The notes beneath the pieces were generated by a model. It saw nothing but the letters and a program-made list of their open reading frames with translations, was not told the origin of the DNA and made no database searches. Positions 51,075 through 63,957 of a stretch of 64,000 nucleotides of DNA are shown here, one piece after another; the stretch's first letter is position 1, and each line of letters opens with the position of its first letter. A program made the position numbers and the translations under genes. This DNA is from Segetibacter aerophilus. GTDB taxonomy: Bacteria; Bacteroidota; Bacteroidia; Chitinophagales; Chitinophagaceae. The stretch spans positions 124,001 through 188,000 of the forward strand of contig NZ_BJYT01000011.1 in NCBI RefSeq assembly GCF_007991655.1. The letters are read 5' to 3'.

Positions 51075-52583
51075 TTACAAGTCACTATTAAACTGCTTGT
51101 ACTGCTTCATTTTATTATAAAGCGTTTTTCTGTCAACGTTCAAAATTTTAGCAGCCTTACTTTTGTTGTAATTAGCCTTCCTTAAAGCCTCTACAATCAT
51201 CTCATATTCTGCATCAATACTAGCTCCTTTAAGACTGTGTTCATTAATCTCCAGTTGTTTGGTAAATACAGGCTCCGGTAAAACAGGGGCAGAATAAGTG
51301 GCCACTGGCGGAGCCGGATCTGCTTGCCTAACTTGTAAATTAGAAGTTGCTTCTTCACTGACTTCTCCAAACTGTAGTTTAGTAAAATTGGTGATTTCAA
51401 AAGGCAATACAGTCGGCATAATGTACTCAGTATCGCAAAGCAACGTGGCACGTTTTACAACGTTTTTTAACTCGCGCAGGTTCCCTGGCCAGACGTAGGT
51501 TTTGAAGATCGCTTCTACTTCAGGAGAGAACCCTTTGATGTTCTTACTTAATTCATCGTTTGTAAGTTTCAAAAAGTGCTTCGCGAAAATCATCATATCA
51601 TATTTCCGCTCGCGAAGAGGCGGCACTTCTATACTAAACTCATTGAAGCGGTGATACAAATCTTCCCGGAATTTTCCCTTTTTAGCCGCATCCAATAATC
51701 TTTCGTTGCTTGCTATTATAATACGAACATCAAGATCAATGTCCTTATTACCACCTATGCGGCGCATCTTCCTCTCTTGCACAACCCTTAGCAAAGCCAC
51801 CTGAACGTCGTAAGACAAGTTGGCTACTTCGTCAAGAAAAATAGTACCTCCGTTGGCTATCTCAAAGTTTCCTATTTTTTGGTTAAGGGCTCCTGTGAAT
51901 GATCCTTTCTCATGACCAAATAACTCACTTCCTGCTAATTCTTTTGAGAGGGCGCCACAGTCGATTGCCACAAAAGGCATGTCTTTACGCTTGCTACGCT
52001 TGTGTATCTCCTGTGCAATCGCTTCCTTGCCGCTTCCACTTTCACCATAGATTAGAATGCTATAGTTAGTTGGAGAAACAAGGTCTATTTGCTTTAGTAT
52101 GTTTTTAAACTCGGGGCTATCACTGAAAATGTATTGGCCTGATGTAATTGTTTTGGACTTTGTACTATTTTTTGAGTCATCTTCAGGCATTATTACCGTA
52201 GCAACATTTTCCTGTTTAGTTGCGCTCTTTTGTAGGGCAGATTTAATGCTTAATAAGATTTCATCAGGGAACAATGGCTTTGTAACATAATCGTATGCCC
52301 CTAATTTCATTACATCTACAGCAACCTTAATATCACTATAGCCCGTAACAATAATTACCGGCGTACGAGGATATCTTTCTTTTATTTTAATCAACAACTC
52401 CTTTCCATCAATGTCTTCCAATCTAAAATCACACAGTACAAGATTCGGCTCAGCATTTTCTAGCTCCTCAAGCGCCTTTTTGCCGTTATGGGCAAGCGTA
52501 ACTTCGTATCCATTCTTACTTAAAAATCGCTTTAGAAGTAAGCACATGTCTACGTCGTCATCTATCACTAAAATTTTACTCAT
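51075..52583 (-). CDS. NtrC-type sigma-54-dependent response regulator
   Basis: 502 residues: a receiver domain with Asp52 in CDFRL, an AAA+ domain with Walker A GESGSGKE (180-187), the sigma-54 contact loop GSFTGA (227-232), Walker B GGTIFLDEV (245-253), and a C-terminal Fis-type helix-turn-helix (YNKSKAAKILNVDRKTLYNK). GSFTGA differs from the usual GAFTGA by one residue, which occurs in other members. It opens sigma-54 promoters; rpoN lies 34 bases upstream in the same direction. Confidence 0.94.
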   Translation of the reverse strand: MSKILVIDDDVDMCLLLKRFLSKNGYEVTLAHNGKKALEELENAEPNLVLCDFRLEDIDGKELLIKIKERYPRTPVIIVTGYSDIKVAVDVMKLGAYDYVTKPLFPDEILLSIKSALQKSATKQENVATVIMPEDDSKNSTKSKTITSGQYIFSDSPEFKNILKQIDLVSPTNYSILIYGESGSGKEAIAQEIHKRSKRKDMPFVAIDCGALSKELAGSELFGHEKGSFTGALNQKIGNFEIANGGTIFLDEVANLSYDVQVALLRVVQERKMRRIGGNKDIDLDVRIIIASNERLLDAAKKGKFREDLYHRFNEFSIEVPPLRERKYDMMIFAKHFLKLTNDELSKNIKGFSPEVEAIFKTYVWPGNLRELKNVVKRATLLCDTEYIMPTVLPFEITNFTKLQFGEVSEEATSNLQVRQADPAPPVATYSAPVLPEPVFTKQLEINEHSLKGASIDAEYEMIVEALRKANYNKSKAAKILNVDRKTLYNKMKQYKQFNSDL

Positions 52584-52617
52584 TTAGAAAATTTAATACT
52601 TATTAATTAGTTTTGAT

Positions 52618-54039
52618 TTAGGCCCACATTCTTCGCAACTGGGCAACGGGAATTTGTAGTTGTTCCCTGTATTTTGCAATAGTCCGCCTGGCTACATTTA
52701 TACCTTTATTCGCTAAAATACTTACCAATTGCTGATCGGTGTATGGATTTAACTTATCCTCTTTTTCTATAACTGCTTCAATTGCGGATTGTATAACTCT
52801 ATTACTTATTACTTCGCCCTCCTTATTAATGATGCCTTCAGTAAATAAATTCTTCAGCAAAATAATACCAAAAGGCGTATCAACGTATTTATTTGACGTA
52901 ACCCTTGATACGGTGGAAATGTCGACCCCCACTTTGTCAGCTATATTTTTTAAAATCATTGGCTTCAAAAGGCTTACGTCCCCTGTTTTAAAATATTCTC
53001 TTTGTAGGTCAACAATGGCTTTCATTATTTGCATCATGGTTCCTTCACGTTGCTTAATCGCATTTACAAACCACTGCGCCGAACTCAACTTACTTTTTAA
53101 ATACTGAGTGGCTTGCTTGTCGCGTGTAGCACCGGCAAACTGCACCGTCTCCATCAACGACTGGTTGATGTACAAAGACGAGGATCTTGACCTGTATAAA
53201 TTGACTTCAATATCACCATCATCATCAACTGTAAGTATAAAATCTGGTATTATATTGTTGTTAACTGTAGTGCCTTCAAATTCTTCGAGAACAGGCTTAA
53301 GTTTTAAAGAAGCCAAAAGTCTCAGGACAATTTTTAGCTCATCTTCATCTATGGAAAGTGCCTCCATAATTTTTTCCATATTACGATGAGACAAGTCTGC
53401 ATAATGGTTCTCAAGGAGTTTGATAGCCATCTTCACATCAGGACCTTTCTTGTTGAGGTGATGAAGCTGTAGTAGCAAACATTCCCTTGTATTTTTGGCA
53501 CCTACCCCAACAGGATCAAGCTTTTGTATATGATTGACCACTTCCTGCAATTCGTCAGCTTCCACTATAACTCCATGCTTAAACGAAAGGTCATCTGCCA
53601 TGTCCTCTAGGTCCTGTAGCAAAAAACCGTTGCAGTTAAGGCAGTCAATTATATAATCTGCCAGGTTTAAATGTTTTTCTGAAAGGTCCATATACCTTAT
53701 CTGATCCTTGAGGCCTTCGCGATAATCGCTAAAAGATTTTATAGGTACATTAGGTATCGACTCGCTATTGAAGTAGTTCTCGTACTCCAGTTTGTAATCT
53801 GGTACATCATCATATCCGTGTTCTTCCCAATCTTCATAGTCCTGTGCATTTTCTTTTGCAAACTTCTCAACTGCTACCGTCTCTTCCTCTTCATTCATCT
53901 CCAAAAGAGGATTCTCGTCTAATTCATCACTGATACGCTGATCTAATTCTAAAACATTAAGATGAAAAATGTTCAGCATTTGAATTTGCTGAGGCAAAAT
54001 CTTCAACTGCTGTTTTTGGGTTTGAATTTGGCTGAGCAT
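52618..54039 (-). CDS. rpoN: RNA polymerase sigma-54 factor
   Basis: 473 residues. Glutamine-rich region I at the start (SQIQTQKQQLKILPQQIQML), the acidic region II, the core-binding region III, and the RpoN box ARRTIAKYRE at 450-459, which reads the -24 element. Sigma-54 genes need an activator, here the NtrC-type protein downstream. ATG at 54037-54039. Confidence 0.96.
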   Translation of the reverse strand: MLSQIQTQKQQLKILPQQIQMLNIFHLNVLELDQRISDELDENPLLEMNEEEETVAVEKFAKENAQDYEDWEEHGYDDVPDYKLEYENYFNSESIPNVPIKSFSDYREGLKDQIRYMDLSEKHLNLADYIIDCLNCNGFLLQDLEDMADDLSFKHGVIVEADELQEVVNHIQKLDPVGVGAKNTRECLLLQLHHLNKKGPDVKMAIKLLENHYADLSHRNMEKIMEALSIDEDELKIVLRLLASLKLKPVLEEFEGTTVNNNIIPDFILTVDDDGDIEVNLYRSRSSSLYINQSLMETVQFAGATRDKQATQYLKSKLSSAQWFVNAIKQREGTMMQIMKAIVDLQREYFKTGDVSLLKPMILKNIADKVGVDISTVSRVTSNKYVDTPFGIILLKNLFTEGIINKEGEVISNRVIQSAIEAVIEKEDKLNPYTDQQLVSILANKGINVARRTIAKYREQLQIPVAQLRRMWA

Positions 54040-56212: not shown

Positions 56213-56464
56213 ATGAAAGAATCATTTAATGCAGAAAAGGATATTTCGGAGAACGTAAAAACATCTTCGACTGATTCGAAAGAGAACAGTAAAACTACAG
56301 GAGATAGCCAAGTGCAGGATGGTGAAGGCGTTGCAAGGCCGGAGCAACAGAAAAAATCCTATGAGAAGAGTGATGAGCAGCAAGAATATTTACAAGACGC
56401 CAACAACAATACCGCCTCAGGCAATGAGAGCCCGGTACAAGATGGAAAAGGATTGTCGATGTAG
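56213..56464 (+). CDS. Small hydrophilic protein
   Basis: 83 residues, strongly charged and glutamine-rich, without a signal peptide, and probably disordered. It carries an imperfect repeat (QVQDGEGVARPEQQ and PVQDGKGLSM). It follows the receiver gene after 44 bases and may be co-transcribed. Unknown function; the call as a gene is moderate. Confidence 0.5.
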   Translation: MKESFNAEKDISENVKTSSTDSKENSKTTGDSQVQDGEGVARPEQQKKSYEKSDEQQEYLQDANNNTASGNESPVQDGKGLSM

Positions 56465-56523: not shown

Positions 56524-57663
56524 TTAAAAAGAAGTTCCGTGAGTTGATTTAATAAGAGCCTTCGCCAAGGGAGGAACTGAATGCATCGTTTGCAAAAACA
56601 AAGAAGTTGAAGTATTTCCACCAAAAAATCTCTGGACATTTCGTCCTACCCATAGCCTCAATGAAAACGCTTTTTTCCAATCTGCCTCGTACTTTTCTTC
56701 CATTATATTACGACTAACTTTTCCTTCCAGAAATAGTTTAATACAATCAAATGATATTTTAGACGAGTGCATCGCCATACTCATACCGTTACCACACAAG
56801 GGGCTGATCATTCCAGCCGCGTCCCCGAGCATGAGGACATGATTTTCAACCTGGGACTTTTTACTAAAACTAATTTGCGAGATTGCTAATGGCTCTTTAT
56901 ACAAAAACTCAGCAGAAGTAAAAACGGACTTTAACTTTGGGTTTTTGAACAACACCTGCCTTTGCATCTCTTCAATTGAATTCCCACAAGATTTTAAGTT
57001 AGATGCAGTTGTTAAATAACAGAGACAACTCTTATCATCTTCAATTTTAGAAAGCCCGCAATAGCCGTTATAGAAGTTGTGTAAGGAAATACTGTCCTTG
57101 TCGTGTTCGTATTTGATATGGTATTTAATTCCAACATAGTTGTTCAGCCTTTCAGTCTTTTGGGATACAAAACTTCTTTTCCACTTAATATCGAGATTGC
57201 TTCTTTTGCCAAAAGATCCCGCGGCGACCTTTGCCCTTACCTGTCGCCCAGCGCTGCTTACTGTGAAAAGGTCATTAGAAAAACTGACGTCAGTTACTTT
57301 ACAATTAGTAAAAACAGTTACCCCTTTTGATTGAGCTATTTTAAATAGCCGGTGATCCAGAGCGTGGCGGCTGATACCAAATCCACCTAAAGGCAGGTTG
57401 AACGAATAAGTTTTACCCTTTACATCCGACAAGTGAAGGGTTTTAATTAAAGGCAAGTTGAAACTTTTCAGATCAGCCCCTATTCTGTGTAAAAAATCCC
57501 AGCTTTCGAGGCTGATATACTCTCCGCAAACTTTATGATAAGGATACTCTTCTTTTTCAAAGAGAACAACGCTGTACTGTGCATCAGCACATTGAATGGC
57601 AAGTGAAAGGCCTGCAAGTCCTCCTCCAATAATGGCTACATCGTATACAAGATTATCACTCAT
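56524..57663 (-). CDS. FAD-dependent oxidoreductase (geranylgeranyl-reductase-like) of the polyketide operon
   Basis: 379 residues. The dinucleotide-binding motif IIGGGLAGLS (11-20), an E at the end of the second strand (VVLFEKEEYP), the CGEYIS segment, and the second FAD motif GDAAGMISPLCGNGM (280-294). The sequence resembles geranylgeranyl reductases and flavin hydroxylases. In a type III polyketide cluster the expected jobs are ring hydroxylation, as in the SrsC-type enzymes of Streptomyces, or saturation of a prenyl chain. It ends the operon; its start overlaps the methyltransferase by 8 bases. Confidence 0.88.
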   Translation of the reverse strand: MSDNLVYDVAIIGGGLAGLSLAIQCADAQYSVVLFEKEEYPYHKVCGEYISLESWDFLHRIGADLKSFNLPLIKTLHLSDVKGKTYSFNLPLGGFGISRHALDHRLFKIAQSKGVTVFTNCKVTDVSFSNDLFTVSSAGRQVRAKVAAGSFGKRSNLDIKWKRSFVSQKTERLNNYVGIKYHIKYEHDKDSISLHNFYNGYCGLSKIEDDKSCLCYLTTASNLKSCGNSIEEMQRQVLFKNPKLKSVFTSAEFLYKEPLAISQISFSKKSQVENHVLMLGDAAGMISPLCGNGMSMAMHSSKISFDCIKLFLEGKVSRNIMEEKYEADWKKAFSLRLWVGRNVQRFFGGNTSTSLFLQTMHSVPPLAKALIKSTHGTSF

Positions 57664-58351
57664 GTTTATAGCTAACGAGGTATCTAAAAGCCCATTTCCA
57701 CTGTATCGTTGCGTTGCTAATACCTGCTTGGCTACAAATTTGGCTTAATTCTTCCTTGGTAAATCCCCGTGCAACGCTTAAGGGCGCATCATTTTTTACC
57801 AGGTAGGATTTCGAAAACAATTGTGTTAGGATTTTTATGGAATAATATGCTATCGTACTCCTTTGCAAATCATTTATGAAAAAACCGATCGTACTGTTTT
57901 CTTTCATCCACGTAAATTGAAACACTAATTCCTCAAAAGTAAAATGATGACAAAATAGACTGGAGAAAATAATGTCAGGTTTACGTTCAAAACTTACCTT
58001 TTTGTAATCGCAAACAATCCAGTTAACATGGGAGAAACTGCTTTGCCTGCTTTTCGCGAAATCAATACACTCTTTCTTTAAATCAATTCCCGTAATAGAC
58101 AGCTTTATATTTTCAGATCTACACCATTTCTGAATGGCCACCAAATTATCACCACCACCACAACCAATTTCGCAGACAGACACTTCCTTTTTATTTTCAA
58201 CCAACTGCCTGAACCCGTCGATTGTAATACTGTGCCCACCCAACCATTTGTTTATAAAATCGAGCTCTTTTAGATTTTGCTTAATGTCTTCAAAAGGAAT
58301 TAATTCTTCGTCTAAAAATTCGGTTTGATATGACCTTTCGGTAAGGTTCAT
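57656..58351 (-). CDS. SAM-dependent methyltransferase of the polyketide operon
   Basis: 231 residues. Class I motif VCEIGCGGGDNL (59-70), ITGIDLKKECIDFA and ICSSLFC-type acidic motif IIFSSLFCHHFTFEELV. By position, overlapping the polyketide synthase by 4 bases and the FAD enzyme by 8, it most likely methylates the phenolic product or a free hydroxyl. C- or O-methylation cannot be decided from the sequence. Confidence 0.88.
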   Translation of the reverse strand: MNLTERSYQTEFLDEELIPFEDIKQNLKELDFINKWLGGHSITIDGFRQLVENKKEVSVCEIGCGGGDNLVAIQKWCRSENIKLSITGIDLKKECIDFAKSRQSSFSHVNWIVCDYKKVSFERKPDIIFSSLFCHHFTFEELVFQFTWMKENSTIGFFINDLQRSTIAYYSIKILTQLFSKSYLVKNDAPLSVARGFTKEELSQICSQAGISNATIQWKWAFRYLVSYKHE

Positions 58352-59427
58352 GCTTTTGATGCAATGAAAGTTTCCATAGTCAGACCGGGGCCAAATGCTA
58401 CTCCGAAAACATTTGCTGCACGGTGCTTTGTCCCTTCCATAATTTCCTTGAGGACGAATAAAATAGTAGGGGAAGACATATTTCCGTATTTGGATAAAAC
58501 AGATTTTGAGCAGGACAGGTCCTCCGCTGAAAGTGAGAGCTTTGACTTAATTACTTCCAAAATTTTCCTTCCACCCGGATGTATGCACCAGTGAGTTATA
58601 TCACTTTGATCAAGGTTGCCTTCGTCTAATGCACTCTTTACTAAAGCAGCTATGTCTTCCTGTATCAGCTGCGGTATATAAGCGCTCAGCTTCATAAGAA
58701 AGCCGGTATTACTTATTTGCCACGACATGTCGTTTTTGCCTTTATATGAAATCTCTGAATAAAAGCTTTTAACCTTTAAAGCGTTGGGAGAAGTTATAGA
58801 ATTCGAGAGCAGCAACGCAGCGCTTCCATCTCCAAATAACAAACTGCTTGCAGCATTGTCGAGGGTAAAATGCTTTTGAAAATGAATAGTACAAAGCTCA
58901 GTGCAAACGATTATAACCTTTGCATTGCTGGTTGAATCACAAATCATTTTTCCAATCTTCATCGCATGAATTGCTGCATAACAGCCCATGAAATTTACAG
59001 AAGTTCTGAAGACTTTATTTGAGAGGCCGAGATCTTCTGCGATTTGTAAGTCTAAGCCCGGCGCACTCATTCCGGTACAGCTAACAGTAATTAAATGAGT
59101 AATTTCTTCAGGTTCAATAAAATTTTTTACACACTCTTTGATGGCCGCTACCGACAGGGCGAGCGCATTTGACTCAAAAAGATCGATCCTGCTATTAAGG
59201 CATTTTTCCCCTGCATCAGGCTCAACAAATTCCCACTCGCTTTCAGGTTTTCCAAAATCAGGCAACACTGAGTAACGGTTTTCTATTTCACTTTGCTTGT
59301 ATAAGAAACTAAGCTTCCGTGCATCATCTTCGTTTAGACGATAAGCCTTTTGCATAAACTTCAGGATCTCTTGTTGCGGGTGGCAATATTGAGGTAAAGC
59401 AGTTCCTATAGATATTATATTAGCCAA
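58348..59427 (-). CDS. Type III polyketide synthase
   Basis: 359 residues. All three catalytic residues of the chalcone/stilbene-synthase family are seen: Cys149 in NFMGCYAAI, His283 in HWCIHPGG, Asn316 in KYGNMSSPT; the terminal GVAFGPGLTMET loop is also typical. It condenses an acyl starter with malonyl-CoA units and often cyclises them to resorcinols or pyrones. The only in-frame start that keeps the family N-terminus (MANIISIGTALPQY) is a TTG at 59425-59427 that overlaps the end of the prenyltransferase gene, so translation is probably coupled. The starter length is unknown; long-chain fatty acyl starters are common in such enzymes. Confidence 0.93.
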   Translation of the reverse strand: MANIISIGTALPQYCHPQQEILKFMQKAYRLNEDDARKLSFLYKQSEIENRYSVLPDFGKPESEWEFVEPDAGEKCLNSRIDLFESNALALSVAAIKECVKNFIEPEEITHLITVSCTGMSAPGLDLQIAEDLGLSNKVFRTSVNFMGCYAAIHAMKIGKMICDSTSNAKVIIVCTELCTIHFQKHFTLDNAASSLLFGDGSAALLLSNSITSPNALKVKSFYSEISYKGKNDMSWQISNTGFLMKLSAYIPQLIQEDIAALVKSALDEGNLDQSDITHWCIHPGGRKILEVIKSKLSLSAEDLSCSKSVLSKYGNMSSPTILFVLKEIMEGTKHRAANVFGVAFGPGLTMETFIASKA

Positions 59428-60283
59428 ATTTTTGAAGCAGAATTATTGTTATAAAAGCGAGGCTGGTACAGGTGCTCGCCAGCCAGTTCATTTGCATTGT
59501 ATGTTTGTAATCGGCAAGGGTTTCGTTCTTCAGCACCTTTAAAAACCATTGAACAAAATATACGACCACAGGGCTGAAAAAGATTAATAAAACAATAAAA
59601 GGTTTATAAAGTTCATGGTTGCGATAATATGACCATAAAAGTGCCAGGGCTAACAAATACATGAGCGAGCAAAAGATGAAAGTTCCCTTTTTTCCCATCT
59701 TCATGCTAATGGTTGTTATGTTGTCTTTTGCATCAGCCTCGTACTGGTAAATCTGGGTAATAGGGTAAAATCCTCCAATTAAAAAAGCGGCGGCTAACAA
59801 ACCTATGAATGACATGTGATTCGTAAGATTCGAGTCAACACCATGGTAGACCATGAAGAAAGTGAGGGCGCCTTGGTTAAAAATCACTGTGAGATATCCC
59901 AATAAGGGGTATTGCTTCAGCCGAATTCCGCGGTAACTATATAAACGCGAGCAAAGGATGTAGATAACAATGCAGGAAGCAAATAAGGAAGACACAAACA
60001 GCGATAAGACAACTGCCACCACATCCATCACGACGGTTACAAAAAACAATTGCTTAGTAGGCGGAGGCGGCTTTTCAATTCCACCTATGCTTCCGTCATC
60101 TCTATCCATATAGCTATTGTAACCATTGCTGGATGGATATACCAGCAAATGAAGAATTACAAAAACCAGAATGGCTCGCGGAACATTTACAGTATCTACA
60201 AAACTGACTGCAAACCAGTAAACGGGCATTAAAAAATAAGAAAAAGGAAAACGAAGTAGCTGTATTGTAGAACGTTGAAGCAA
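59420..60283 (-). CDS. UbiA-family prenyltransferase of the polyketide operon
   Basis: 287 residues with eight or nine membrane helices. Both aspartate-rich diphosphate motifs are present: NSYMDRDDG (56-64) and YEADAKDNITT (181-191). UbiA enzymes attach an isoprenoid chain to an aromatic acceptor at the membrane. The start is a TTG at 60281-60283; no ATG is in a sensible position upstream. It is the first gene of the overlapping operon, which points to a prenylated polyketide. Confidence 0.9.
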   Translation of the reverse strand: MLQRSTIQLLRFPFSYFLMPVYWFAVSFVDTVNVPRAILVFVILHLLVYPSSNGYNSYMDRDDGSIGGIEKPPPPTKQLFFVTVVMDVVAVVLSLFVSSLFASCIVIYILCSRLYSYRGIRLKQYPLLGYLTVIFNQGALTFFMVYHGVDSNLTNHMSFIGLLAAAFLIGGFYPITQIYQYEADAKDNITTISMKMGKKGTFIFCSLMYLLALALLWSYYRNHELYKPFIVLLIFFSPVVVYFVQWFLKVLKNETLADYKHTMQMNWLASTCTSLAFITIILLQKFG

Positions 60284-61405: not shown

Positions 61406-62623
61406 TTATAAATTCACTTTCTCTGAAATCACTTCAGGAATTCTTTTTAAAAGTTCTATACAAGCTCTACTGTTGTGGTACGGGCATTTCCACAGTCCCA
61501 CTTTATCCTCGCCGTGCATCACAGAGTAATCTTCTTTGATGCCCCAAAACCATTCGCCGTCTTTTTTATTGAGGATATACTGCTCAATAAACTTCCAGCT
61601 ATTCCAGGATTTGTCAAGAAAAGATTGATAGCCTGTAGCCTGGTAGGCATTATAAAAACCAACCATCGCTTCAGCCTGGGGCCACCAATGTTTTTCTTTA
61701 ATGAGATGCCCTGATGGCAGTTCCTTTTCGTACCACAAACCTCCATCTGCGTCCAATCCCCGTTCAGCCGCTTCAGCAACTTTTATTGACTTTGCTTTCA
61801 CTTTTTCTACCAGGCCTGCCTGCTGTATAATTTCAGCAGCTTCCTGAACCAGCCAGGCAGCTTCTATGTCATGTCCAAAGGATATTGTAGTAGACTTCCT
61901 GTTCCATTTTTCATCAAAAAACAAAATGAGATGGTTCGTCTCTTTATCAATAATGTGATCAAGAAAGATGTTGATTAGTTCTTCGATTTTTTGCTTTAAA
62001 ACAGCATTGGGCCAAATGAGATAAAGGTTCGCAAAGGCCTCCAAAATATGCAGGTGTGTATTCATCGATTTCTTCTCGTTCGAATCTTTTGCACTCAAAC
62101 GGAGGTCCTCTATTTCTTTCCAGTCTCTTGTCAGGGCTTCAATATATCCACCGTAAACTTTCTCGTAACTACGATTGATGATTGACTTATACAGATCTAT
62201 TGCCAGCTGCTTGGCCCTTTCATCTTCGCTTGCTTTGTAGTACTCACTCAAGCCATACAATGCAAAAGCCAAGGCGTAAATTTGCTTCTTTGTATCCAGG
62301 GCGTTTCCCCTGTAGTCGATCGTCCAGTAAACGCCTCCAAATTCTTTGTCAATAAAATAAGAACTGATGTATTTAAAAGCCCTTTCAGCGGTTTGGAGGT
62401 AAGCAGGTTTTTTGACAAGATTATACGCAGCTGAAAAAGTCCATAAAATTCTGCTATTCAGTACCGAACCTTTTGGAGCGTCTTCCTCAACCTTATTTGC
62501 GTTATCTATACGTCCATAAAAGCCACCGTTTTTCAGATCAATAGAATAGGTAAGCCAGTACGCAAGAATGCGATTCAGCTCCTGCTGCATCTCGTTCCTG
62601 TAGTTAATTAAAAACTCCCTCAT
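61406..62623 (-). CDS. N-acylglucosamine 2-epimerase family protein (probable cellobiose 2-epimerase type)
   Basis: 405 residues, (alpha/alpha)6 barrel with an early AYWLTYSIDLKNGGFYGRID and the HLHILEAFANLYLIWPN, SFGHDIEAAWLVQEAAE and EKHWWPQAEAMVGFYNAYQA active-site stretches. AGE proteins epimerise free or disaccharide sugars at C2. Next to the GH130 phosphorylase, the likely substrate is mannobiose, giving mannosylglucose for the phosphorylase. The start is an ATG 21 bases after the GH130 stop. Confidence 0.88.
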   Translation of the reverse strand: MREFLINYRNEMQQELNRILAYWLTYSIDLKNGGFYGRIDNANKVEEDAPKGSVLNSRILWTFSAAYNLVKKPAYLQTAERAFKYISSYFIDKEFGGVYWTIDYRGNALDTKKQIYALAFALYGLSEYYKASEDERAKQLAIDLYKSIINRSYEKVYGGYIEALTRDWKEIEDLRLSAKDSNEKKSMNTHLHILEAFANLYLIWPNAVLKQKIEELINIFLDHIIDKETNHLILFFDEKWNRKSTTISFGHDIEAAWLVQEAAEIIQQAGLVEKVKAKSIKVAEAAERGLDADGGLWYEKELPSGHLIKEKHWWPQAEAMVGFYNAYQATGYQSFLDKSWNSWKFIEQYILNKKDGEWFWGIKEDYSVMHGEDKVGLWKCPYHNSRACIELLKRIPEVISEKVNL

Positions 62624-62644
62624 TTCCTTCTCGCGTTTGATCTT

Positions 62645-63862
62645 CTAATGCATTTTCATTTGGTGATACTGCTTATCATTTTGCCTGTTCATAATAGCAA
62701 GGTTTCGATCGATGATTTTATTGATTGTATTAACCGTATGCTCAGAGCGAAACCCGTCTTCAGGAGAATTGACGACATAATCAACAAGGCGATCGATAGA
62801 GGAAGTTGCTACATGCAGACGCGTGTCGGAGGAAGCGTAATAGATAAAGACAGTTCCGTCATCATCTGCTATCCAGCCGTTGCTAAATAATACGTTCGAC
62901 ACATCTCCTACCCTTTCCTGTCCTTCAGGCGCCATAAAGAAGCCCGCAGGTTTATGTATCACCTTCGTTAAATCCTGCAGATCGGTCATAAACATATACA
63001 GCACATATCGCAAACCGGCAGCAGTGTTGCGAACGCCGTGCGCTAAATGTAGCCAGCCTTCACTCGTTTTAATTGGGGCAGGACCTAAACCGTTCTTTGC
63101 TTCGTACACCGTATGGTACACTCTTTTGTCAATTACAATTTCTTCTTTTATCACGGCATTTTCCATGCAATCGGCAAGGCCGAAACCAATTCCACCACCT
63201 TTACCTGCATCAATAAATCCATCTTGCGGACGCGTATAGAATGCATATTTTCCTTTTACGAACTCGGGGTGCAAAACGACATTCCTTTGCTGTGGTGAAG
63301 GCGTCTTCAGATCAGGAAGACGCTCCCAATCGATGAGGTCTTTGGTACGTGCTATGCCACATTGGGCGTCTGCAGATGACTGGTCGCTTTCAGGAGCATT
63401 AGGATCGCGGCGTTCCGCACAGAACAAACCGTAGATCCAGCCGTCTTCGTGTTGTACAACGCGTATATCATAGATGTTAGTAGCAGGGTTTTCCGTTTCC
63501 GGCATTGTTATAGGTCGATCCCAAAAACGGAAATTATCAATACCGTTATCACTTTCTGCAACAGCGAAAAACGACTTTCTATCAATTCCTTCAACTCTTA
63601 CAACAACCAGGTATTTACCGTTGAATTTTATCGCTCCTGCATTTAGTGCCGCATTTATTCCAAACCTTTCCATCAGGTAAGGATTGGTTTGGCGATTGAA
63701 ATCATACCGCCACGTCAAGGGAGCATGCTGCCCCGTTAGAATAGGGTATTGGTATCTTTCATATACGCCATTACCTAACTCCTCTCTTCTATTCGGCCTT
63801 TCTATCAATTTGCTGTGGGCTTCCTGCAAACCCTGCAGTCTTTTTTCATAATTGTTACTCAT
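62645..63862 (-). CDS. GH130 beta-mannoside phosphorylase (mannosylglucose phosphorylase type)
   Basis: 405 residues from the ATG at 63860-63862 (an earlier in-frame start adds 12 odd residues). The five-bladed beta-propeller pattern is clear: [28 protein letters not shown] with the catalytic aspartate, [20 protein letters not shown] and the terminal blade. GH130 enzymes cleave mannosyl-glucose with phosphate to mannose 1-phosphate and glucose. With the epimerase it forms the second half of the bacterial mannan pathway; the mannanase and transporter may lie upstream, outside the window. Confidence 0.9.
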
Positions 63863-63957
63863 GTGGTTCTTTTTTTGGCTGCAAGCTGTTAGCCTCAAGC
63901 TGCAAGTTTTTTTATTTATTTTTCGTCACCCAACAGAACTGTTTACCTGGTTTTTCT

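Follow-up and report, generated by a model that had tools for sequence, protein, structure and literature searches.

We propose that a four-gene operon of Segetibacter aerophilus, encoding a UbiA-superfamily membrane protein, a type III polyketide synthase (PKS), a methyltransferase (MT), and a FAD-dependent oxidoreductase, would make a prenylated phenolic lipid of the methylated, hydroxylated alkylresorcinol or hydroquinone type. We put the probability of this reading at roughly 0.68, and it remains the best account of the locus, as already suggested in the first-pass annotation of this DNA. The operon and its key residues are located as follows in the window (i.e., the entire 64,000-nucleotide stretch that was analyzed):

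59420..60283, reverse strand: predicted UbiA-superfamily membrane prenyltransferase, 287 a.a., opening the operon with a TTG start
60098..60118, reverse strand: UbiA motif 1, N56-S-x-x-D60-x-D62, altered from the canonical NxxxDxxxD
59732..59746, reverse strand: UbiA motif 2, Q180-x-x-x-D184, altered from the canonical DxxxD
58348..59427, reverse strand: type III PKS, 359 a.a., TTG start 8 bases upstream of the UbiA end
58981..58983, reverse strand: PKS catalytic Cys149, invariant in 21/21 sequences
58891..58893, reverse strand: PKS Cys179, aligned with Cys205 of PKS18
58579-58581, reverse strand: PKS His283, invariant in 21/21 sequences
58480-58482, reverse strand: PKS Asn316, invariant in 21/21 sequences
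57656..58351, reverse strand: class I SAM methyltransferase, PRK06202/UbiG-like, 231 a.a., ATG start
56524..57663, reverse strand: FAD-dependent oxidoreductase, 379 a.a., ATG start, with CGEYIS and GDAAGMISPLCGNGM motifs

In the open reading frame list, adjacent genes overlap by 8 (UbiA/PKS, 59420-59427), 4 (PKS/MT, 58348-58351), and 8 bases (MT/FAD, 57656-57663). The single strand, the overlaps, and the TTG starts of the first two genes were all read in this way in the first-pass annotation, and the four protein identities given there agree with the Pfam matches.

The UbiA-PKS-MT-FAD order is kept in 72 of 80 named loci, a figure which describes the nearest relatives, as the set comprises the best 80 of at least 552 loci (a few genomes possibly counted twice). 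Whether the order extends beyond close relatives had been raised as a check, and within this top-scoring set it is conserved well outside them (72/80). The 8-base UbiA/PKS overlap recurs in 45 of the 72 order-conserved loci, with TTG as the PKS start in 43 of those 45 (again within this set of 80), and the four-gene unit is present in all nine other genomes of the genus Segetibacter. Given that order, overlap, and start codon are conserved across the named loci, the arrangement is not due to chance.

Co-occurrence links this UbiA to this particular PKS clade. Among 295 Bacteroidia genomes, the UbiA subfamily was found in 54/54 genomes with the PKS clade (delimited at 290 bits, a threshold chosen after a gap between 295.8 and 224.8 bits was seen) versus 4/241 of the remainder; the corresponding Fisher value of 7e-55 is descriptive, since related genomes are not independent. 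In five of the 54 co-occurring genomes, the UbiA gene lies far from the PKS gene, unlinked. As for the four exceptions, the PKS gene is broken off at a contig end in one (G406), two (G212 and G236) carry UbiA relatives lacking D60, D62, and Q180, and the last (G456) is an assembly that is 61% complete and too partial to judge. The UbiA-associated PKSs form a single branch of the PKS tree (96/95), unaffected by the labelling of three tips as UbiA-less without a genome search (L053, L056, and L057) and of one as having a distant UbiA despite its absence from the distant-UbiA list (L209, from G147). Incomplete operons also occur: MT and FAD are not downstream of PKS in two loci (L129 and L228), and there is no MT within the 18 kb examined at another (L174). 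FAD and MT lie beside the PKS in 4 but not in 8 of the 12 low-scoring PKS loci sampled from the phylum (L197-L208).

We also considered a larger conserved cluster around the operon, which was rejected as flank clustering of 102 loci (some genomes represented twice, the flank families appearing housekeeping-like by eye) returned no family in more than 25 loci. The spread of the operon in this form by plasmids was likewise rejected, given that a search of 72,556 plasmid records with UbiA gave no match at an E-value of 1e-5 or below. PKS matches were present in 111 plasmid records, every one <60% identical, and in the three of these inspected, a gene table that is stated to be incomplete annotates no UbiA closer than 5 kb.

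The PKS scored 103.8 and 91.1 bits against Pfam PF00195 and PF02797 (Chal_sti_synt N and C; cut-off 27), and the Cys149/His283/Asn316 triad picked out in the first-pass annotation is invariant in all 21 aligned sequences, the window's PKS among them. Its nearest solved proteins are Steely1 and PKS18 by profile (PKS18 being second-best), and the Ectocarpus PKS (4b0n) and PKS18 by single sequence. T118, A122, and C179, all invariant in 21/21, correspond to T144, A148, and C205 of PKS18, which we take to line the acyl tunnel; the Cys179 position was aligned to both 1ted and 1tee, the latter with a Phe there. F183 replaces A209 of PKS18 and could make the tunnel narrower. In NCBIfam, the best model is DpgA (3,5-dihydroxyphenylacetyl-CoA synthase), an enzyme with malonyl-CoA as its sole substrate, but we rejected this assignment as the score of 160.6 bits falls below the equivalog cut-off of 425. 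In the wider PKS family, acyl starters are suggested by the FabA-like, ketosynthase, and PPTase genes present in sister operons of clade B.

The UbiA protein belongs to its superfamily by Pfam (65.3 bits, cut-off 34.2), and its AF2 model (pLDDT 93.8) matched Archaeoglobus UbiA and DGGGP synthase in Foldseek with a query TM-score of up to 0.72; a PDB sequence search with this protein was unproductive. The protein had been credited with both Asp-rich motifs, and while both sites are present, neither is canonical when compared with four paralogues from the same genome. Motif 1 retains N56xxxD60 with the third Asp displaced to D62, and motif 2, aligned to the MqnP-like paralogue, has Q180 in place of the first Asp. 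These residues (N56, S57, D60, and D62; Q180 and D184) are invariant in 46/46 aligned sequences, and the QxxxD form of the second motif is a new feature. With the third Asp missing from its usual place in motif 1 and the first Asp of motif 2 replaced, this UbiA is not assured of ordinary Mg-diphosphate chemistry. The EboC paralogue of the same genome likewise lacks DxxxD. A role as the menaquinone prenyltransferase was rejected, given the genome encodes a separate MqnP-type polyprenyltransferase (TIGR01475, 282.4 bits, cut-off 180.8), which makes the operon UbiA unnecessary for menaquinone.

The MT matched class I families only in Pfam (Methyltransf_25, 40.5 bits) and scored 125.7 bits against NF004851, under its cut-off of 243. 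It gave no Pfam match to ICMT, the methyltransferase type of SrsABC; an ICMT gene instead adjoins a different PKS clade (one locus tested by Pfam, L201). The FAD protein matched DAO (45.3 bits) and Lycopene_cycl (36 bits) in Pfam, and its best NCBIfam model, TIGR02032 (geranylgeranyl reductase), gave 101.7 bits, below the cut-off of 158.8. Its AF2 model (pLDDT 91.0) was closest to PltA and ChlB4 in Foldseek; among the 50 matches listed, halogenases and hydroxylases rank first and geranylgeranyl (GG)-reductase structures hold ranks 43 and 50, with E-values that overlap across all three groups (3e-23 to 6e-19). Flavin-dependent halogenases conserve an active-site Lys somewhere around residues 60 to 90; for the FAD protein, comparison of 46 sequences showed no Lys to be invariant from residue 53 to residue 99.

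Sister FAD-MT-PKS operons were found in 7/7 checked genomes without a match to this UbiA subfamily, and the FAD enzyme and MT probably belong to the polyketide part of the pathway. Another UbiA could still serve in these seven genomes. In addition, Pfam was applied to L184, taken from the nine loci whose FAD scores were weak, and to one Deinococcus plasmid, and in both the FAD slot of the PKS-MT-FAD arrangement holds a protein of FAD_binding_3, a family of aromatic hydroxylases (195 and 186.5 bits, respectively). The FAD-annotated protein of a Psychrobacter plasmid had no Pfam match at 1e-8. The FAD family in sister operons without this UbiA and FAD_binding_3 at the same slot make the enzyme more likely a ring hydroxylase than a prenyl-chain reductase. 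The choice between these two roles, left open in the first-pass annotation, is thus mostly answered by comparison, with prenyl-chain reduction unlikely in view of the seven genomes without this UbiA.

Of 107 distinct UbiA loci, 11 have a YceI lipocalin gene next to them, compared to 0.25 expected, and the other 96 have none adjacent; the Poisson value of 4e-15 is descriptive, as the genomes are related. The link was seen first and counted later, with a profile seeded from the adjacent genes (three Pfam-checked) and a background density based on 127 matches in 21 genomes (about 102 Mb in all, using rounded sizes). Most solved YceI structures are described as having held an isoprenoid, e.g., octaprenylphenol or ubiquinone-8 (PMC9113575), so the adjacency is a pointer to an isoprenoid product.

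In the proposed pathway, the PKS would use malonyl-CoA to lengthen a fatty-acyl starter and then cyclize the chain into an alkylresorcinol or alkylresorcylic acid, as its family and tunnel residues suggest. From its context, the FAD enzyme may then hydroxylate the ring to a hydroquinone or quinone type core, and the class I MT may methylate a ring oxygen or carbon. A point against is that co-expression of a planctomycete MT and FAD enzyme led to a methylation but left the FAD role unexplained (PMC10896814). A diphosphate donor would supply the isoprenyl chain that the membrane UbiA would add to the ring (at O or C), and the resulting phenolic lipid or quinone, with its two tails, would reside in the membrane. 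The proposal leaves unfixed the sequence of the last three steps, the chain lengths, and the attachment site.

The closest characterized logic is the agq system of Actinoplanes missouriensis, likened here by its described pathway and not by sequence, whose products, said to have been reported by Awakawa et al. 2011, are reportedly alkyl-O-dihydrogeranyl-methoxyhydroquinones. According to PMC10896814, the alkylresorcinols from AgqA are "subsequently prenylated and hydroxylated", and a small polyketide is O-prenylated by a membrane enzyme similar to the prenyltransferases of quinone pathways (PMC4044012). The methoxy group in the agq product name fits the presence of an MT, and PKS, UbiA, MT, and FAD are encoded together and co-inherited in Bacteroidia (72 of the 80 named loci, the top-scoring ones among at least 552; 54/54 genomes). 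The agq host differs in being an actinomycete.

The first-pass annotation had instead drawn a parallel to SrsABC of Streptomyces griseus, in which a type III PKS, an MT, and a flavoprotein make phenolic lipids and, to our knowledge, there is no prenyltransferase. This triad is indeed shared, but agq is closer, and the operon MT is class I while SrsB is an ICMT-type methyltransferase. SrsA alkylresorcinols are reportedly oxidized to alkylquinones (PMC10896814). The cyanobacterial hidABC (hierridin) and a planctomycete operon also share the MT, oxidoreductase, and type III PKS triad (PMC8086630, PMC10896814), but differ in their usual gene order (MT-FAD-PKS) and lack a prenyltransferase, except in one hierridin-like cluster of Raphidiopsis mediterranea; the planctomycete type III PKS genes yielded pentadecyl- and heptadecylresorcinols in Corynebacterium. 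The losA (loseolamycin) locus of Micromonospora endolithica has a UbiA-family prenyltransferase and a putative MT near its type III PKS, but an acyl-CoA dehydrogenase in place of the FAD enzyme, with alkylresorcinols as the reported loseolamycin products. The first-pass annotation did not recognize the hybrid as characterized in this phylum, and our literature search found no paper describing the product of this operon or characterizing the hybrid in Bacteroidota, but the hybrid has been characterized in an actinomycete.

The PKS might alternatively make a small ring without a long alkyl tail, of the dihydroxyphenylacetate (DpgA-like) or orsellinate type. UbiA would supply this ring with a polyprenyl tail like that of plastoquinone or ubiquinone, the MT and hydroxylase would act next, and the outcome would be a polyketide-derived isoprenoid quinone. 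DpgA as best model, YceI neighbors that bind polyprenyl phenols and quinones, and the MqnP-type enzyme that frees the operon UbiA from menaquinone all favor such a route, and a UbiA, a UbiG-like MT, and a FAD hydroxylase together copy the logic of ubiquinone synthesis. Nevertheless, the DpgA shortfall (160.6 against 425 bits), the PKS18 tunnel residues, and the acyl-starter genes of clade-B operons make this unlikely. PKS18 is an acylpyrone synthase and second-best among solved relatives by profile, so the PKS product could be an alkylpyrone, decorated by the other genes, rather than a resorcinol. Alkylpyrone clusters are also described as widespread in myxobacteria (PMC12766979). We consider a pyrone quite improbable, as a hydroxylase-type FAD enzyme and a UbiA are better suited to an aromatic ring and the planctomycete PKSs of related operons gave alkylresorcinols.

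The altered motifs (the invariant Q180 for Asp and the displaced third Asp), together with the lack of DxxxD in EboC, could also mean that the UbiA-like protein performs a non-prenyl transfer or carries the polyketide in the membrane. We regard this as very doubtful: the motif residues are invariant in 46/46 sequences but D60, D62, and Q180 are lost in the relatives from the PKS-less G212 and G236, which suggests a catalytic site under selection, and the YceI adjacency points to an isoprenoid product. Equally slim is the chance that the FAD enzyme works as a member of the GG-reductase family and reduces the prenyl chain to a saturated or dihydro form. The top rank of TIGR02032, the dihydrogeranyl of the agq products, and a KVCGE motif at the position of the conserved Cys-Gly of GG-reductases, argue for this role, while the seven genomes without this UbiA, FAD_binding_3 at the slot in two tested operons, and the leading halogenases and hydroxylases in Foldseek argue against it.

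The prenylated phenolic lipid, our preferred reading, would if correct be a widespread, overlooked membrane lipid of the phylum. The logic of a prenylated PKS lipid is not new, as the agq precedent indicates; the breadth of the UbiA-PKS-MT-FAD operon in Bacteroidia is. The operon UbiA could then become a source of membrane aromatic prenyltransferases, the reaction type also used in plant cannabinoid synthesis, and would offer a test, set by nature, of how Asp motifs function in UbiA enzymes. More tentatively, and with considerable doubt, many Bacteroidia may have, in addition to menaquinone, a second class of prenyl lipid or quinone that is derived from polyketides via a UbiA with a rebuilt metal site (N-S-x-x-D-x-D ... 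Y-Q-x-x-x-D), as a conserved membrane component handled by YceI lipocalins. Such a lipid would be an electron carrier, antioxidant, or barrier lipid and not an occasional secondary metabolite. PMC9100364 places type III PKS clusters among the four commonest cluster types in Bacteroidetes, most clusters of which have no known counterpart. Both PKS and UbiA occur in 54 of the 295 Bacteroidia genomes sampled, almost one in five, and distant UbiA matches (79 to 124 bits) occur in 11 genomes of family f40 outside Bacteroidia.

Reading of the ORFs on the Segetibacter aerophilus contig (C11, in a 5.9 Mb genome) placed four genes on the minus strand, with each of the four assignments backed by Pfam. 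This operon and its neighbours in the window are as follows.

60283 to 56524, minus strand: UbiA-family membrane prenyltransferase, type III polyketide synthase (PKS), class I methyltransferase (MT) and FAD-dependent oxidoreductase genes, in this order
56213–56464, plus strand: 83-residue low-complexity ORF just beyond the operon, resembling by eye an ORF in the same place in S. koreensis (locus L060)
51075–54039: rpoN (sigma-54) gene, with a sigma-54-dependent response regulator gene immediately downstream
61406–63898: GH130 phosphorylase gene adjoining a GlcNAc 2-epimerase family gene, a pair probably involved in mannan use

Successive genes in the operon overlap by 8, 4, and 8 bases and TTG is the start codon of both the UbiA and PKS genes, so the ORF coordinates bear out the first-pass annotation on the four overlapping genes and their starts. 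The 8-base UbiA/PKS overlap and the PKS TTG start (59420–59427) are both conserved elsewhere.

The search for the same four-gene order that had been suggested there returned it widely. Among 59 relatives searched (including the window's genome), the PKS was present in 21 (E below 1e-70), and in 18 of the 20 PKS loci other than the window's whose surroundings were fetched, the UbiA-PKS-MT-FAD order was identical. In one of the remaining two, UbiA is placed after the FAD gene, while the contig carrying the other is 3.8 kb long and shows a divergent UbiA and no FAD gene. The order was present in all nine other genomes of the genus and was patchy elsewhere in the family (9/26 genomes). A scan of named genomes yielded at least 552 loci, and 72 of the best 80 displayed the exact order. 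The others comprised four loci cut by the ends of the fetched stretch (L064, L073, L075, and L076), two with split reading frames (L086 and L087), one affected by overlapping ORFs (L127), and one with UbiA and PKS only (L129). The 8-base UbiA/PKS overlap was found in 45 of the 72 exact-order loci, 43 of which have TTG as the PKS start codon; this retention suggests that the two genes may be translationally coupled.

In an evenly drawn sample of 295 Bacteroidia genomes, PKS scores were bimodal, with 54 genomes at or above 295.8 bits (clade A) and 22 at or below 224.8 bits. The UbiA subfamily (E up to 1e-40) occurred in 54/54 clade A genomes, compared to 4/241 of the remainder. Within clade A, UbiA was found on the same strand as the PKS and no more than 6 kb away in 36 genomes, divergent from it in 13, and unlinked in 5. 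As for the exceptions, the PKS of G406 begins at a contig end, G456 is a 61% complete assembly that allows no judgement, and G212 and G236 carry UbiA relatives without D60, D62, and Q180 that have kept D184. Maximum-likelihood inference on 67 PKSs placed the 30 accompanied by UbiA on one side of a single branch (support 96/95), while shuffled UbiA labels needed a mean of 22.3 changes. Together with the co-occurrence, this topology fits a single recruitment of UbiA to the PKS lineage, retained even after the operon broke up. The relatives in the PKS-less G212 and G236 (L221:6266-7123 and L222:6398-7264) appear as if decaying or re-used. Family f40, which lies outside the class, also has distant UbiA proteins (about 120 bits) in two of its genomes (L214:6173-7039 and L215:5735-6613), sharing the NSxxDxD signature with the subfamily, with the PKS unlinked.

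The AF2 model of UbiA (pLDDT 93.8) displayed the UbiA fold. The prenyltransferase had been described as having both Asp-rich motifs, which holds in part. When aligned to its same-genome paralogues (CtaB, MqnP-like, GGGP-like, and EboC), the subfamily retains N56 and D60 in motif 1 and D184 in motif 2, whereas motif 1 has D62 in place of its third Asp and motif 2 has Q180 in place of its first. The residues N56, S57, D60, D62, Q180, D184, and D187 were invariant in all 46 aligned sequences, with D187 variable among more distant members. The loss of D60, D62, and Q180 in the two PKS-less genomes suggests that the site is in use, and the enzyme probably retains activity, with its metal site modified. 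The EboC paralogue of the window's genome (L141:1312-2202; 412 bits, over the cut-off) is flanked, by eye, by dehydroquinate-synthase-like and hydrolase-like genes, making an ebo cluster likely at this locus.

The solved proteins nearest to the PKS were Steely1 and PKS18 by profile, and an Ectocarpus PKS and PKS18 by single sequence; its best named NCBIfam match was DpgA, with a score far below the cut-off. Residues T118, A122, and C179, invariant in 21/21 sequences, align with T144, A148, and C205 of PKS18, residues that line its long acyl tunnel (structure 1tee, compared to 1ted, has Phe at 205). The retention of these tunnel positions favours a fatty-acyl starter.

The PKS-MT-FAD core, with no adjacent UbiA, extends to other classes of the phylum and to two plasmids: a Deinococcus plasmid, where a glycosyltransferase gene comes next, and a Psychrobacter plasmid, where the FAD and MT genes lie on the opposite strand. 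In the sister operon (clade B), the order is FAD-MT-PKS, an SDR in some, FabA-like, ketosynthase, a small ORF (ACP-sized, with no Pfam match), and a phosphopantetheinyl transferase, such that this type III PKS appears equipped with acyl-starter machinery of its own; this arrangement was seen in other Bacteroidia at L203:6220-11540, and at L198, L202, and L204. In seven genomes with FAD-MT-PKS (G108, G158, G135, G082, G015, G010, and G051), the UbiA subfamily gave no match at E up to 1e-6. The FAD proteins of these genomes fall in the window's FAD family, with the three aligned being 39 to 42% identical and profile scores of 462 to 519 bits, from a profile that itself included those three. Given that FAD and MT accompany the PKS in these genomes without a match to the UbiA subfamily, the two enzymes probably act on the polyketide rather than on the prenyl chain. 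As for the reaction, the FAD enzyme as modelled by AF2 (pLDDT 91.0) came closest to flavin halogenases and hydroxylases; geranylgeranyl reductases ranked 43 and 50 among the 50 matches listed, with scores too close to decide alone. The equivalent slot is held by FAD_binding_3 proteins in L184 (family f40; 195 bits) and on the Deinococcus plasmid (186.5 bits), and since these are enzymes of the aromatic-hydroxylase type, ring hydroxylation is the preferred role.

The agq system of Actinoplanes missouriensis is reported to make alkylresorcinols that are later prenylated and hydroxylated (PMC10896814), and a second paper, citing the same work, mentions a membrane enzyme from a rare actinomycete that performs O-prenylation (PMC4044012). 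The cyanobacterial hidABC and a planctomycete operon are described as holding the triad with no prenylation. Type III PKS clusters are reported as common in Bacteroidetes (PMC9100364), and a literature search, with most subscription journals outside its scope, returned no paper on the Bacteroidota operon. The logic of the proposed pathway is thus already known; what is new is its occurrence in another phylum, the broad conservation, and the altered UbiA.

Finally, YceI-family genes were located no more than 1 kb from the UbiA locus at 11 of 107 distinct loci, compared to 0.25 expected from their density, on both sides of it and in both orientations. Most solved YceI structures contain an isoprenoid, e.g., octaprenylphenol or ubiquinone-8, according to one report (PMC9113575), and a putative lipid/isoprenoid-binding protein is reported to be encoded within a type III PKS operon from 'Saltatorellus ferox' (PMC10896814). 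The YceI adjacency may hint at the product.
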